Below are positions 7,601 to 11,914 of a stretch of DNA of 64,000 bases, piece by piece. The stretch is from Polyangium mundeleinium (GTDB lineage Bacteria; Myxococcota_A; Polyangia; Polyangiales; Polyangiaceae), in the NCBI RefSeq assembly GCF_028369105.1, contig NZ_JAQNDO010000001.1:620001-684000 (forward strand), given 5' to 3'. The position numbers and the translations under genes were made by a program. The number at the start of each line of letters is the position of its first letter. The first letter of the stretch is position 1. The notes under the pieces are model-generated. The model saw nothing but the letters and a program-made list of their open reading frames with translations. It did no database searches and was not told where the DNA came from.

Positions 7601-7724
7601 AGCAGGCTGTTGATAAACTTGCTGCGCGCCCTGGATCGTCGGTCGTCGTCCTCGGAATACTCTCGTATTCCTGCGTCCTCCTCCCTGGCTCCAGGACGCT
7701 CGCGGCGTTTCTCAACAGCCTGCT
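7601..7724. repeat. 124-bp palindromic MITE-like repeat between convergent genes
   Basis: The ends are a perfect 13-bp inverted repeat, AGCAGGCTGTTGA (7601-7613) and its complement (7712-7724). Inside, the two halves remain partly complementary (AAAC/GTTT, CCTGGA/TCCAGG), and the centre is a perfect stem GGAATAC-TCTC-GTATTCC around 7656-7673. The whole unit can fold as one long imperfect hairpin. It fills nearly the full gap between two convergent genes and overlaps two bases of the kinase stop codon (7723-7725). No transposase is present. A non-autonomous mobile element or a dispersed palindrome acting as a bidirectional terminator are both possible. Confidence 0.8.
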
Positions 7725-9453
7725 ACGAGCTCCGCGCGCCCGGTTTCTTCGCGCGCGTGAGCAGCCCCTGGAGCACCTGCGGATCGAGCGGCTTCATGAG
7801 CTGGTGATCGATGCCCGCCTCCTCGGCCTTGCGTCGATCCGCCTCTTGCCCGTACCCGCTCACGCCGATCACCAGCGCCTTTGACGTCGGCCTCGTCGCG
7901 CGCAGCCGCCGCGCCACCTCGAACCCGTCCATCCCCGGCAAGCCGATGTCGACCAGCACCACATGCGGACGAAACGTCGCCGCGAGCGAAACGCCTTCCT
8001 CGCCGCTCTGCGCGGCCCGCACGTCGTAGCCCCAGAGCCCGAGCAGCTCGGAGAGCATGTCCGCCGCGTCCGTGTTGTCCTCGACGACGAGCGCTCGTTG
8101 CGCGCTCGCCGGAGCCTCCTCCGCCGCGTGCGCCTTCGCGCTCGGGCCGTCGCGCCGCACGTGCGGCAGGCGCACCACGATCTCCGAGCCCTTGCCCACG
8201 CCCTCGCTCCGCGCCTCGACCGAGCCCCCATGCATCGAGATCAGGCTCTTCACCAGCGTGAGGCCGATGCCGAGCCCGCCCTGTGATCGATCGAGCGCAC
8301 GTTCGCCCTGTACGAACAGATCAAAGACGCGCGGCAGGAGATCCTCGGGCATCCCGATCCCGTTGTCCTTCACGGTCGTGGTCACGCCCGCCGGGCCCTG
8401 CTCGACCGAGAGCGCGATCTGCCCGCCGTGCTCGGTGTACTTCGCCGCGTTGTTCAGCAGGTTCACGATCACCTGCTCGAGCCGCGTCGGATCTCCCTGC
8501 ACGAGCACCGGCGCCGCCGGCAGCGACACCCGGAGCGTGTGGCCCGAGGCGTCGACGAGCGGCCGCGCAGCGTCCAACGCGCTCCGCACGATCGTCCCGA
8601 GATCCACGAGCTTCGTCTGCAGCGTGATCGTCCCGCGCGTGATGCGCGAGACGTCGAGCAGGTCGTCGACGAGACGCGACAGGTTGCGCGCCTGCCGCTC
8701 GATCACGCTCCGGAACCGCTCGACCCGCGCGTCGCCCTGCGTCGACATGCGGATCATCTCCGCCGCCGTCAGGATCGGCGCGAGCGGGTTGCGCAGCTCG
8801 TGCCCCAGCATCGAGAGGAACTCGTCCTTGCGCCGATCGGCCTCGCGGAGCGCCTCGTTCGCCTTCACGAGCTCGGCCGTCCTCGCCGCGACGCGCGCTT
8901 CGAGCTCGTCGTTCACCTGCCGCAGCGCCGCCTCCGCTGCTTTGAGCGGCGTCAGATCCGTGGCGACCCCGGTGAATGTCGGGTCGTCCTCGCCCGCGTC
9001 CTGGATCGACAACATCACCGGCAACTGCGCGCCGCTTGCTTGCGTGAACGAGATCTCCCCTTTTGCGCTCCCGCCCTTGGCCTGCGCGAGCAGCGCGGAG
9101 AGCTCCTCCGCCTCCTCGGGCCCGACGAACCCCGACAGCGACGCGCCCAGCACCTTGCCGAGCGGGCGCTCGAGCATCTCGGCGAGCTTGCGGTTGGCGA
9201 AGAGGATCGTCCCGTCCCCGGCGATCGTCATCGCGCCCTCGTTCAGGCTCTCCAGCAGCGTCCGATGCGCGTGATCGGCGCCTCTCAGCACGAACACGCG
9301 CGGCGCGCCGTCGGCGGAGATCACGAGCGCGTCCACCTCGCCCGCGCGGATCGCCGAAAGCGTTGCTTCGGCTTCTTCGACACGCAGGATGAGGTCGTGC
9401 GCGACGATCGGGTCCGGAGGTGTGGAGCTCGCCTCGGCGTCCTTTTTCGTCAT
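7723..9453 (-). CDS. PAS-domain hybrid sensor histidine kinase of the kai operon
   Basis: A 576-aa soluble hybrid kinase. After an N-terminal helical region (20-60, with a DALVIS segment), a PAS domain covers about 66-170 (NEGAMTIAGDGTILFANRKL). A coiled linker follows at 172-212, then HisKA with SMLGHELRNPL (His218). The HATPase domain has the N box NLLNNAAKY (331-339), G1 DNGIGM and G2 GGLGIGL. A receiver domain (453-570) has phospho-acceptor Asp502 and Lys554. No membrane segment is seen. The ATG at 9453 follows an AGGGGG site and overlaps the stop of the upstream kaiB-like gene as ATGA. By position and coupling it is the likely output kinase of the Kai proteins. The cognate partner is unknown, and the receiver may act as an internal phosphate relay. 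Confidence 0.93.
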   Translation of the reverse strand: MTKKDAEASSTPPDPIVAHDLILRVEEAEATLSAIRAGEVDALVISADGAPRVFVLRGADHAHRTLLESLNEGAMTIAGDGTILFANRKLAEMLERPLGKVLGASLSGFVGPEEAEELSALLAQAKGGSAKGEISFTQASGAQLPVMLSIQDAGEDDPTFTGVATDLTPLKAAEAALRQVNDELEARVAARTAELVKANEALREADRRKDEFLSMLGHELRNPLAPILTAAEMIRMSTQGDARVERFRSVIERQARNLSRLVDDLLDVSRITRGTITLQTKLVDLGTIVRSALDAARPLVDASGHTLRVSLPAAPVLVQGDPTRLEQVIVNLLNNAAKYTEHGGQIALSVEQGPAGVTTTVKDNGIGMPEDLLPRVFDLFVQGERALDRSQGGLGIGLTLVKSLISMHGGSVEARSEGVGKGSEIVVRLPHVRRDGPSAKAHAAEEAPASAQRALVVEDNTDAADMLSELLGLWGYDVRAAQSGEEGVSLAATFRPHVVLVDIGLPGMDGFEVARRLRATRPTSKALVIGVSGYGQEADRRKAEEAGIDHQLMKPLDPQVLQGLLTRAKKPGARSS

Positions 9454-9842
9454 GGATCCCCCTGTTCGTGCGGAGGAAGCCCGAGACCCACGAGGACACG
9501 CTGGACGTCGGAGAGCGAGCCGATGAGGCGCTGCACAGGCAGCGGCCGCTCCCGCACCAGCGTCGGCGCGGCGATGATTTGCGCGTCGCGCGCGAGCCAC
9601 GGTTCCTGGTTCAGGTCGTGCACCTCGAGGTCGAAGCGACCCACGAGGTGCTCATCGCAGAGCCTCCGCACGTTGCGGATCGCCCATCGCGATCGGGGGG
9701 AGTTGCCGACGACGTAGAGCCGGAGGACGTACGTCTCCTGGAGATTGTCGGCGAGCGCCTGCTCCCAGGAGTCGTTCGTGCCTCCCGAGGCCGCTGGGGT
9801 GGTTCCTTCGCGGCGCCCGTCGTCTTGATCGCTCCCCCCCAT
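9450..9842 (-). CDS. kaiB: KaiB-like protein 2, coupled to the kinase gene
   Basis: A 130-aa protein with a KaiB/thioredoxin-like domain at about 35-122 after a 34-residue hydrophilic N-terminal extension. Conserved KaiB features are LRLYVVGNSPRS at the first strand and turn, DLNQEPWLARDAQIIAAPTLV with the cis-Pro loop, and IGSLSDVQRVLVGLGL at the end. It lies between kaiB1 (9-bp gap) and the kinase (ATGA overlap). It diverges from kaiB1, for example in DLNQEPW versus DLLQHPQ. The cyanobacterial kinase SasA has a KaiB-like N-terminal domain, and this protein plus the next gene have the same two parts as separate chains. A SasA-like sensory role or a second KaiB role are both possible. Confidence 0.9.
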   Translation of the reverse strand: MGGSDQDDGRREGTTPAASGGTNDSWEQALADNLQETYVLRLYVVGNSPRSRWAIRNVRRLCDEHLVGRFDLEVHDLNQEPWLARDAQIIAAPTLVRERPLPVQRLIGSLSDVQRVLVGLGLPPHEQGDP

Positions 9843-9851
9843 GGTTGCTTT

Positions 9852-10166
9852 CTAGCGAGGCCGGATGTCGAGACCCACGAGCACACGCTCGGTGTTCGAC
9901 AGGTCCCCGATGATCTTCCGGATGGGCTCGGGCAGCCGCCGCACGAGTGTGGGGATCGCCAGGATTTGATCCCCCTCTGCGAGCTGCGGGTGCTGGAGCA
10001 GATCGACGATCTCGATGCGGTATTTCCCTGCGAGGTGCTCCTCGCAGAGCCGCTTCAGGTTGGAGAGCGCGAGGAGCGACTTCCGCGTCTGGCCTGCGAC
10101 GTAGAGCCGTAAGTCCCATACGTCGGGGCTCACGTCGGCGTGGATCCCGTTCACGGGGCTCGTCAT
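9852..10166 (-). CDS. kaiB: Circadian clock protein KaiB
   Basis: A 104-aa, near-canonical KaiB. The sequence [18 protein letters not shown] matches the first beta-alpha unit. [22 protein letters not shown] matches the central region, including the thioredoxin-like cis-proline, and [23 protein letters not shown] matches the C-terminal part that refolds in fold-switched KaiB. In characterised systems KaiB binds the CI ring of phosphorylated KaiC and resets it. The start ATG overlaps the kaiC stop (ATGA), implying translational coupling. It lacks the acidic C-terminal tail of cyanobacterial KaiB. This is the better candidate for the true KaiC partner among the two copies. Confidence 0.94.
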
Positions 10167-11914
10167 CTGGCACCTCCATTCTGCTGCTTGCTCGGATCCG
10201 CCTGCCGAAGACGGGCCATCTGTTCACGGTCGCGGCTGAGGCTGACCTCGCGGCGTTTGTCCTGCTCCACGACGGCCAGGACCTCCTGCTCCTCTGCTTC
10301 GAACTCTGCCCGGAGCGCGAGGATCTGCGCCTCGACCTGGGCGCGCTTCCGCGTGAGATCGCGCTGCTTGCGCTCGATCTCCTGCTGCCGCGTGATCGAC
10401 TCGGCGCGCTCCTTGGCTTCCTGCGCCTGCCGCGCCGACCCCGTGAGCACCCCCGAGGACCCCACGTACACGTCGAGCAGGTCGATCCCGTGGGATCCCA
10501 TATGGAACTCGCGCACCTGGTTCGAGTGCGCCATGCCCCTCGATTTGAGCACGTAGAGCCCCCGGTTCCGCTCGCCGCTGCCTTCGAGGAACTGCACGAG
10601 CAGCCACGTATCCATGAGCGACGAGATCCCGATGTCCGTCCCTTCGAGCGTGCCGCTGCCGCCCGTCAGGCTCGTGAAGATCGTGGTGATCTCGCGGCTC
10701 TTCAGGAAGTCGACGAGCCGCATGAGCATCGCGCGCACCTCGAACTCCGTCGCTACCATGGAGAAGTTCGTCACGGGATCGATCACGACGACGTCCGGTT
10801 CGAAGGTCTCGACGAGCCGGTGCATGCTCGCGAGGTGCATCTCCAGCCCGAAGAGCGTCGGGCGGGAGGCCTGGAAGAGGAGCCGGCCCTGGTCGATCCA
10901 CGGCTGGAGGTCGACGCCGATCGAGCGCATGTTGCGCACGAACTGGCCCTGCGACTCCTCGAACGCGAAGTAGAGGCAACGCTCGCCGCGGCGGCAGGCG
11001 CTGTGGACCACGTGCGCCGCCAGGCTCGATTTGCCCGTGCCCGGGGTCCCCGAGACGAGCACGCTCGTCCCGCGGTAGATGCCTTTGCCGTCGAGCATGG
11101 CGTCGAGGCGCGGCACGCCGGTCGACATGCGCGCCTCGGAGGCGTGGTGCGCGAGCCCGAGCGAGGTCACGGGCACGACCGAGATGCCTCCGGCGTCGAT
11201 GAGGAACGGATACTCGTTCGTCCCGTGCATCGTCCCGCGGTATTTGACGACGCGCAGGTAACGCGTGGCGACCCGCTCGTGCACGCGTTGTTCGAGCAGG
11301 ATCACGCAATCGGAGACGTACTCCTCGATTCCGTGCCGCGTGAGCGTGCCGTCGCCGCGTTCGCCCGTGATGACGGCGGTCACGCCGCGATCTTTCAACC
11401 AGCGGAAAAGCCTCCGGAACTCGGAGCGCAGGATGCCCTCATCGCCGAGCGCCGAGAACAAGGTCTCCAGCGAGTCGATGACCACGCGTTTCGCCCCGAC
11501 CGAGTCGATCGCACAGGCGAGCCGCACGAAGAGGCCATTGAGGTCGTAGTCCCCGGTCTCGAGGATCTCGCTCCGCTCCACGTGCACGAAGTCGATCGCC
11601 AGCAACTTGCGGGCGACGAGCGCGTCGAGGTCGAAGCCGAGCGAGGCGACGCTCTGCGCGAGCTCCACGGCGGTCTCCTCGAACGCGAGGAAGACCCCTG
11701 GCTCGCCGTGCTCGGTCGCGCCGCGGACCAAGAACTCCATTGCGAAGAGTGTCTTGCCCGATCCCGCGCTCCCGCATACCAGCGACGTGCGTCCCCTCGG
11801 GAGTCCCCCGACCGTGATTTCATCGAAACCCTTGATACCGGTCGGAGTTTTTTTTAGAACATTGGATGATTCTACCGTCGTGCTCAGAATCTTGACAGAT
11901 TCGTATGTGTCCAT
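10163..11914 (-). CDS. kaiC: KaiC-type double RecA ATPase/autokinase with C-terminal coiled coil
   Basis: A 583-aa protein with two RecA/KaiC domains. CI has Walker A GSAGSGKT at 48-55 and the catalytic Glu pair E79-E80. CII has Walker A GTPGTGKS at 289-296 and E319-E320. The phosphorylation segment TDIGISS at 426-432 aligns with cyanobacterial TDSHIST, so T426, S431 and S432 occupy the three known positions; the last is Ser instead of Thr. In place of the KaiA-binding tail, residues about 493-572 are a highly charged Glu/Arg/Gln-rich helix likely to form a coiled coil. It heads the kaiC-kaiB-kaiB-kinase operon. The ATG at 11914 lies inside a perfect hairpin (11901-11918), with only a weak GGGAG ten bases upstream. 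The role as an autophosphorylating timer is inferred from family. Confidence 0.94.

Follow-up and report, generated by a model that had tools for sequence, protein, structure and literature searches.

The 64,000-nucleotide stretch of the Polyangium mundeleinium genome analyzed here (contig NZ_JAQNDO010000001.1, positions 620,001 to 684,000; hereafter the window) contains a four-gene kai operon that probably encodes a KaiA-independent hourglass system of the Rhodobacter sphaeroides class, composed of a KaiC2-type KaiC, two KaiB proteins and a hybrid histidine kinase. We put the probability of this reading at about 0.8. The genes are arranged in the order kaiC-kaiB-a-kaiB-b-kinase, with kaiC as the first gene; the kaiC stop and kaiB-a start overlap in an ATGA sequence, as do the kaiB-b stop and the kinase start, and only nine bases separate kaiB-a from kaiB-b. 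The genome is 13.25 Mb in two contigs, and the nearest named relatives of the KaiC are those of Polyangium fumosum and of two Polyangium sp., at 89% and 87% identity, respectively. Loci and genomes used for comparison carry our labels L and G.

The KaiC of the window matched the Pfam KaiC model in two stretches (361 bits) and the NCBIfam model PRK09302, circadian clock protein KaiC, at 719 bits (cut-off 408), and both ATPase domains have intact Walker A motifs and Glu pairs. Against solved proteins, R. sphaeroides KaiC scored 677 bits over residues 21-570, the C-terminal tail included, compared to 375 bits for the next-best solved KaiC, the designed clock protein 8ZN5, and ranks 1-17 of the fold search were all occupied by R. 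sphaeroides KaiC chains. Identity to the gene of R. sphaeroides KD131 (L043) is 60% in the core and 36% in the tail. The network residues described in R. sphaeroides (S413, S414, W419, Y436, L438, V449, R450; PMC10076222) align with identical residues in the window protein (S431, S432, W437, Y454, L456, V467, R468), while V421 of the same paper lands, by our count, on Leu in both sequences. The initial annotation had suggested that the protein belongs to the functional class of the Rhodobacter KaiC, and the sequence and fold matches support this placement in the KaiC2-type, R. sphaeroides class; a function as hourglass timer would follow by inference.

The phosphosites that had been aligned by eye can be read directly from the open reading frame: TDIGISS occupies residues 426-432, placing T426, S431 and S432 at the exact numbers of the Synechococcus elongatus sites, with Ser at 432. 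The agreement in numbering is local, the CII Glu pair being at 319-320 in the window protein and at E318/E319 in S. elongatus. In 39 loci encoding a tailed KaiC with two serines, including the window, S431, S432 and W437 are each present 39 times; at position 426, 31 loci have Thr and eight have Ser. The KaiCs of L012 and L063 are identical and probably represent one genome twice, so that each locus tally contains one distinct case fewer; partial or broken genes (L016, L035, L051) were kept out of the tailed set, and L028, with kaiC at a contig end, out of the operon counts, which hence comprise 38 loci. A tree of the tail-free core (49 rows, some near-copies left out) placed 32 of 33 tailed Ser-Ser rows together with four untailed Ser-Ser rows in one group (Shimodaira-Hasegawa-like approximate likelihood ratio test, SH-aLRT, 93), apart from a tailed Ser-Thr group (SH-aLRT 100) and others, with L054 outside; it was built by a quick method and its inner forks are mostly unresolved. 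The KaiA model PF07688 had no match in the genome while the S. elongatus control was positive, a search that did not extend to divergent KaiA3-like proteins. Two other double-domain KaiCs are encoded elsewhere in the genome (C1:8396423-8397787, L055; C1:12157191-12158564, L056); by eye, neither has Ser/Thr at the two sites, and L056 is directly followed by a HisKA kinase gene.

Beyond the core, the initial annotation had described residues 493-572 as a charged helix and proposed a coiled coil. The helix was borne out with a slightly different extent: AlphaFold2, run on a 22-sequence alignment including the window protein, predicted one uninterrupted helix over residues 492-571, with a predicted local distance difference test score (pLDDT) of about 80-91 up to residue 560 and of 62 for residues 561-570. 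The tail can be aligned with the coiled coil of R. sphaeroides without any gap. When hydrophobicity was analyzed by a Fourier test, no significant period emerged in the tail of the window protein or in that of the family; the test likewise missed the R. sphaeroides tail, whose coiled-coil structure has been solved, for which reason a test of heptad a/d positions was used instead, picked after the hydrophobic columns had been inspected. It was significant for the family (24 sequences, p = 0.0002) and for the window protein (p = 0.006, offsets 0-75); the R. sphaeroides tail shares the a/d phase at offsets 14-55 (p = 0.016; whole tail, p = 0.26). The proposed coiled coil is backed by a/d heptads in both the window protein and the family, and neither by a Fourier period nor by the last 20 tail positions of the family (a/d test, p = 0.36).

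The tail is also conserved in length. Among 25 sequences with less than 80% identity, the hinge is highly conserved, the middle carries the heptad pattern, residues 545-561 are weakly conserved, and conservation rises anew at D562, R563, M566, A567 and R570. When the raw sequences are numbered from the hinge Arg, 23 of the 24 non-redundant ones that are long enough have Arg at position +75, compared to an average of 15% Arg over offsets 45-94, figures that come from related sequences and do not amount to a probability. The same Arg is present in 37 of the 39 tailed loci; the exceptions are L031, which has Lys, and Falsirhodobacter L045, which lacks exactly seven residues, one heptad, and has an Arg at +68. 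In R. sphaeroides, C-terminal residues of the phosphomimetic form contact CII of the opposite hexamer (PMC10076222), and by analogy the fixed helix length and fixed tip would fit a tip that reaches the opposite hexamer. This fixed-length tail with a near-invariant tip Arg is new beyond the initial annotation. A Myxococcota clade with cyanobacteria-like Ser-Thr sites also has a tail (L033, L034, L040, L042 and L036; 38-40% core identity). Four of its five KaiCs share the tail length and the +75 Arg, the tail of L036 being short and odd, and thus the tail is not limited to two-serine KaiCs. L087 scores like this tailed Ser-Thr group.

The second distinctive feature of the operon is its pair of KaiBs. 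PF07689 (E 0.001) identified two KaiBs in the genome, both in the kaiC operon, and all five Polyangium genomes with this KaiC, P. mundeleinium included, have two. The sole Polyangium genome without a tailed KaiC (G150) also has no KaiB and no kinase segment of the type described below, suggesting that the entire module was lost or is absent. Among the 38 tailed Ser-Ser loci, 18 have two KaiBs, 19 have one, and the remaining locus (L054) carries a KaiB-kinase fusion. The tandem arrangement occurs in Polyangia, in another myxobacterial lineage (G345), in a Phycisphaerales bin, in Pedobacter and Caenimonas, and on a Pararhizobium plasmid. In a KaiB tree of 64 rows (95 alignment columns, quick method), a 38-row clade (SH-aLRT 100), termed KaiB-a, contained all 18 first KaiBs and 20 single KaiBs, that of R. 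sphaeroides included. Outside this clade were all 18 second KaiBs, the fused domain of L054 and seven single KaiBs; KaiB-b denotes all sequences not in the KaiB-a clade and may comprise more than a single clade. This split indicates that the KaiB-a/KaiB-b pair is old, and a recent KaiB duplication in Polyangium was ruled out by the tree.

Profile searches against solved chains separated the two kinds of KaiB further. The KaiB-b profile (A4, 17 rows) scored 32.3 bits (1T4Y, E 8e-7) and 29.0 bits (6X61) on the SasA sensor domain and 96.6 bits on the Legionella KaiB. For the KaiB-a profile (A3) and a wider KaiB-a profile (A6, 15 rows), the respective values on 6X61 were 15.2 and 17.1 bits and those on the Legionella KaiB 74.2 and 81.1 bits, with 1T4Y unlisted for both up to E 10. 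Since plain thioredoxins scored alike for A6 and A4 (23.5 and 24.0 bits), the gain of A4 on SasA does not merely reflect a looser profile, although A4 is the more diverse (column identity 60% vs 70%). Single-sequence searches agreed weakly: KaiB-b (P0003) matched SasA at E 0.0025, and KaiB-a (P0002) did not at 0.01. With 11 relatives and no KaiB-a control, AlphaFold2 gave KaiB-b a thioredoxin-like fold (mean pLDDT 72; other models 52-65), whose nearest solved fold is the Legionella KaiB 4KUN. Predictions from the ten nearest sequences agreed with the favoured fold for characterised KaiBs, but for one KaiB whose preferred fold is not the switched one, default AlphaFold2 returned the switched fold (PMC10808063). 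Judged by sequence profiles, KaiB-b is mainly KaiB-like, yet its family profile is nearer than that of KaiB-a to the SasA sensor domain and the Legionella KaiB. Asp90-to-Gly was discarded as a marker of a fixed fold in KaiB-b, as several other KaiB-b proteins keep Asp and R. sphaeroides KaiB has Lys. A strongly diverged, short second KaiB in L030 (L030:3867-4109) appears by eye nearer to the SasA sensor domain than to KaiB.

The kinase shares with other kinases of kai operons, of both the HisKA and the HWE type, a 57-residue segment located before and into the first PAS domain (profile A8). The segment is encoded on the kaiC strand in 37 of the 38 tailed Ser-Ser loci, the exception being L054 (myxobacterium G433), where the gene for a 566-aa tailed Ser-Ser KaiC overlaps by four bases with that for a downstream 635-aa KaiB-PAS-GAF-HisKA-HATPase fusion. 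PF07689 detected one further KaiB in G433, within a 372-aa frame on a different contig. As single-KaiB loci have the segment too, it goes with the tail and not with the second KaiB, so that it could be a reader of KaiC or of KaiB-a as much as of KaiB-b. Pfam identified no KaiB domain in the window kinase (P0004), and a SasA-type fusion was seen among the loci only in L054. PADLOC matches were dismissed, being weak, partial and confined to ATPase, receiver and kinase domains.

Genome searches consistently recovered the segment beside kaiC. They scored the best 17-35 first-look candidates per genome, with a profile built from kai-operon kinases. A single-sequence query of the P. mundeleinium genome matched only the operon kinase. 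At E 1e-6, the profile had ten matches in 183 genomes of the order, each at most about 1.1 kb from a KaiC. Seven of the 17 KaiC-bearing genomes of the order were without a match: in G011 and G091 the KaiC is at a contig end, G095 has the Ser-Thr type, and the KaiCs of G010, G012, G049 and G051 belong to other clades. At E 1e-5, a sample of 377 genomes of the phylum yielded eight matches, seven in operons already found and a weak eighth (G483, 28 bits) directly after KaiC and KaiB. Taken together, the order and phylum searches gave 18 listings, four of them repeats, corresponding to 14 places, all 14 beside kaiC. On plasmids, the segment was found in four of 72,556 records (Cereibacter, Pararhizobium, Rhizobium, Sinorhizobium), directly after kaiC and all among 16 KaiC records; this search was insensitive, missing the segments of Falsirhodobacter and KD131.

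The closest studied system provides a basis for a mechanism. R. sphaeroides KaiC belongs to a KaiC2 group with two serines and about 50 extra C-terminal residues, tails occurring mainly in the two-serine kaiC2 subgroup, and forms a dodecamer of two hexamers joined by a 12-helix bundle (PMC10076222). Its fast KaiA-independent phosphorylation was linked to an extended A-loop and its dephosphorylation depends on the tail; KaiB speeds up the KaiC ATPase, which is not temperature-compensated, and the hourglass is reset by the ATP:ADP ratio (PMC10076222). By analogy, two KaiC hexamers of Polyangium would join tail to tail into a dodecamer, our own model being that of a monomer. KaiC would phosphorylate its own S431 and S432 without KaiA because of the extended A-loop, and a register shift of the tail would aid dephosphorylation. 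KaiB-a, in its switched fold, would bind the ADP state of CI and accelerate ATP hydrolysis, so that the phosphorylation state would become an hourglass-like record of the ATP:ADP history. With less certainty, output might then pass to the operon kinase, with KaiB-b and the N-terminal kinase segment standing in for the fused SasA domain. Since Polyangium is not known to be phototrophic, the cue would be the energy state, set by feeding, starvation or oxygen in a myxobacterium, rather than light. A wider proposal, tentative at present, is that many KaiA-less timers use a split SasA, in which a thioredoxin-like KaiB-b and the 57-residue segment read the tailed KaiC dodecamer while KaiB-a drives the timer; in L054, a KaiB is fused to the kinase and the segment is gone.

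Several points weigh against parts of this reading. The structural model is that of a monomer, so that the dodecamer is a prediction from R. sphaeroides, as are phosphorylation and timing in Polyangium, and the Fourier tests of hydrophobic periodicity given above were not significant. As 19 of the 38 tailed loci have just one KaiB, not all such systems require KaiB-b; in three tailed loci (L058, L073, L076), the sole KaiB falls outside the KaiB-a clade and groups with KaiB-b, so that this kind can stand alone. The KaiB-b profile scores canonical KaiBs at 106-119 bits, far above its 29-32 bits on SasA, and the fused KaiB domain of L054 scores 15.7 bits on SasA and 80 bits on the R. sphaeroides KaiB. 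In G091 (L035), a partial tailed KaiC comes with one KaiB, and neither a kinase nor the segment follows within the 2.2 kb left before the contig ends. Furthermore, the Legionella kai operon, whose KaiB was solved in a thioredoxin-like form, is tied to stress and not to rhythms (PMC10808063).

This last point leads to an alternative that we regard as possible, namely that the Polyangium KaiC is a KaiC2 relative acting as a stress or energy-state switch and keeps no time, as reported for Legionella. The resemblance of both the KaiB-b profile (96.6 bits) and the KaiB-b model to the Legionella KaiB agrees with it, as does the fact that Polyangium is not known to be phototrophic. The Legionella variant serves stress responses rather than rhythms (PMC10808063); among solved proteins, however, KaiC and KaiB-a are nearest to the R. 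sphaeroides pair, which behaves as an hourglass in vitro (PMC10076222). Moreover, one and the same chemistry may underlie an hourglass and a switch set by ATP:ADP, so that the two readings overlap, and the sequence appears to fit both. We consider it very improbable, in turn, that the operon encodes a self-sustained circadian oscillator. Positions 431 and 432 are both phosphorylatable, as such a clock would need, yet the KaiA model is without a match in the genome and the closest studied system is an hourglass whose ATPase lacks temperature compensation (PMC10076222).

The roles of the tail and of KaiB-b can likewise be read differently. The tail helix might stay within one hexamer and, instead of joining two, dock a different partner, for example the kinase. 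The segment does track tailed KaiCs (37 of 38 tailed Ser-Ser loci), and it was missing at E 1e-6 in G010, G012, G051 and G011, four genomes of the order in which a kinase adjoins an untailed KaiC from a different clade (G011 has a tailed KaiC too, cut by a contig end); the Aquisphaera plasmid locus L047 likewise shows no segment. The ungapped alignment to the coil of a solved dodecamer, the shared heptad phase and a helix length that is constant but for one change of exactly seven residues fit an antiparallel bundle and make docking alone unlikely, although a single tip may fill both roles. Somewhat less doubtful is that KaiB-b serves as a competitor or decoy for KaiB-a on KaiC without any output role: in cyanobacteria, KaiB is a competitor of SasA for KaiC (PMC6769508), and KaiB-b retains a whole KaiB domain and scores as a KaiB first. 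The ATGA overlap of kaiB-b with the kinase gene and the fusion, in L054, of a KaiB domain from outside the KaiB-a clade to a kinase rather connect KaiB-b to output.

Compared with known systems, the Polyangium operon is closest to KaiBC of R. sphaeroides KD131 (8DBA, 8DB3, 8FWI, 8FWJ; PMC10076222; L043), with which it shares the fold, two serines, hinge, tail length to the tip Arg, network residues, kaiC-kaiB-kinase order and N-terminal kinase segment. KD131 has a single KaiB, of the KaiB-a type, and an HWE kinase, encoded on plasmid pRSKD131A, in contrast to the two KaiBs and HisKA-HATPase-receiver hybrid kinase on a 13.2 Mb contig in Polyangium. Rhodopseudomonas palustris shares the T-S-S sites, a C-terminus about 50 residues longer and the kaiC-kaiB-PAS kinase order; its locus is described with one KaiB, and nitrogen fixation rhythms have been studied there in vivo (PMC4794148), whereas the Polyangium system is known from its genes alone. 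With the cyanobacterial KaiABC-SasA system it shares the KaiC fold (36-40% identity among the fold matches listed), and differs in lacking a KaiA-model match, in Ser at 432, in the long helical tail, and in a KaiB-like protein that, unlike the KaiB-like domain of SasA, is not fused to the kinase. The Legionella pneumophila KaiB (Lpp1115, 4KUN) is the best fold match of the KaiB-b model. In a survey of myxobacterial KaiCs (PMC11832031), none occurs with KaiA, few with KaiB, most have one site or none, and their function is unstudied; the window protein shares the absence of KaiA and is set apart by its Ser-Ser sites, tail and two KaiBs. Chloroploca (Chloroflexota; L017, L018, L019) has Ser-Ser KaiCs of 57-58% core identity with one KaiB and no tail, with no matching kinase or segment within the locus.

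Table 1 Features of the kai operon in the window.
Feature	Position	Strand	Basis or remark
kaiC, double-domain KaiC with C-terminal helix	10163..11914	-	583 aa, ATG start; Pfam KaiC, NCBIfam PRK09302
CI Walker A, residues 48-55 GSAGSGKT	11750..11773	-	KaiC sequence
CII Walker A, residues 289-296 GTPGTGKS	11027..11050	-	KaiC sequence
CII Glu pair, residues 319-320	10955..10960	-	FEES starts at residue 318; catalytic role per KaiC literature
Phosphosite block T426-D-I-G-I-S431-S432	10619..10639	-	S431 and S432 in 39/39 tailed loci
Hinge G488-VLTGSAR495, preceding the tail helix	10430..10453	-	G492 and R495 in 25/25 sequences with <80% identity
C-terminal helix, residues 492-571	10202..10441	-	AlphaFold2; a/d heptad test; ungapped match to R. 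sphaeroides coil
Conserved tail-helix tip, residues 562-570 DREQMARLR, near-invariant R570	10205..10231	-	+75 Arg counts
kaiB-a, 104 aa	9852..10166	-	Pfam KaiB 96.6 bits; R. sphaeroides KaiB clade
kaiB-b, 130 aa, second KaiB, separate subfamily	9450..9842	-	Pfam KaiB 77.1 bits; outside KaiB-a clade
Hybrid histidine kinase, 576 aa, PAS-HisKA-HATPase_c-receiver	7723..9453	-	Domain matches
kai-operon-associated kinase segment, residues 19-75, before/into PAS	9229..9399	-	Profile searches

Taken alone, the KaiC adds one more member to a clade that has already been described. The tandem KaiB operon, the SasA-like second KaiB and the kinase segment appeared in no title or abstract of the literature searched, which was mostly openly available and partial in coverage, and no description was found there of a four-gene set that combines a second KaiB subfamily with a kinase segment linked to kai genes. 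The same literature gave no answer to how KaiB-KaiC systems without KaiA or SasA signal timing to a kinase. Candidates for this output are an unfused KaiB that resembles SasA to some extent and the kinase segment found only beside kaiC in genome searches, and the operon hints at how simple clocks may pass on their signal. Four proteins of one operon allow a direct test, and the near-invariant tip Arg a mutational test of signaling through the tail. Moreover, a timer protein of the type known from a purple photosynthetic bacterium is encoded here in a soil bacterium not known to live on light.

Sets of kai genes are also located on plasmids, in KD131 (L043, NC_011962.1, pRSKD131A), Falsirhodobacter, Sinorhizobium, Rhizobium and Pararhizobium (L044, L045, L046, L077, L078), those of Rhizobium and Pararhizobium being typed conjugative; given these locations, the kai module can probably move. 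One KaiC relative (L051, G284:C499:1430-2767) contains an in-frame TAA and represents either a broken copy or an assembly error.

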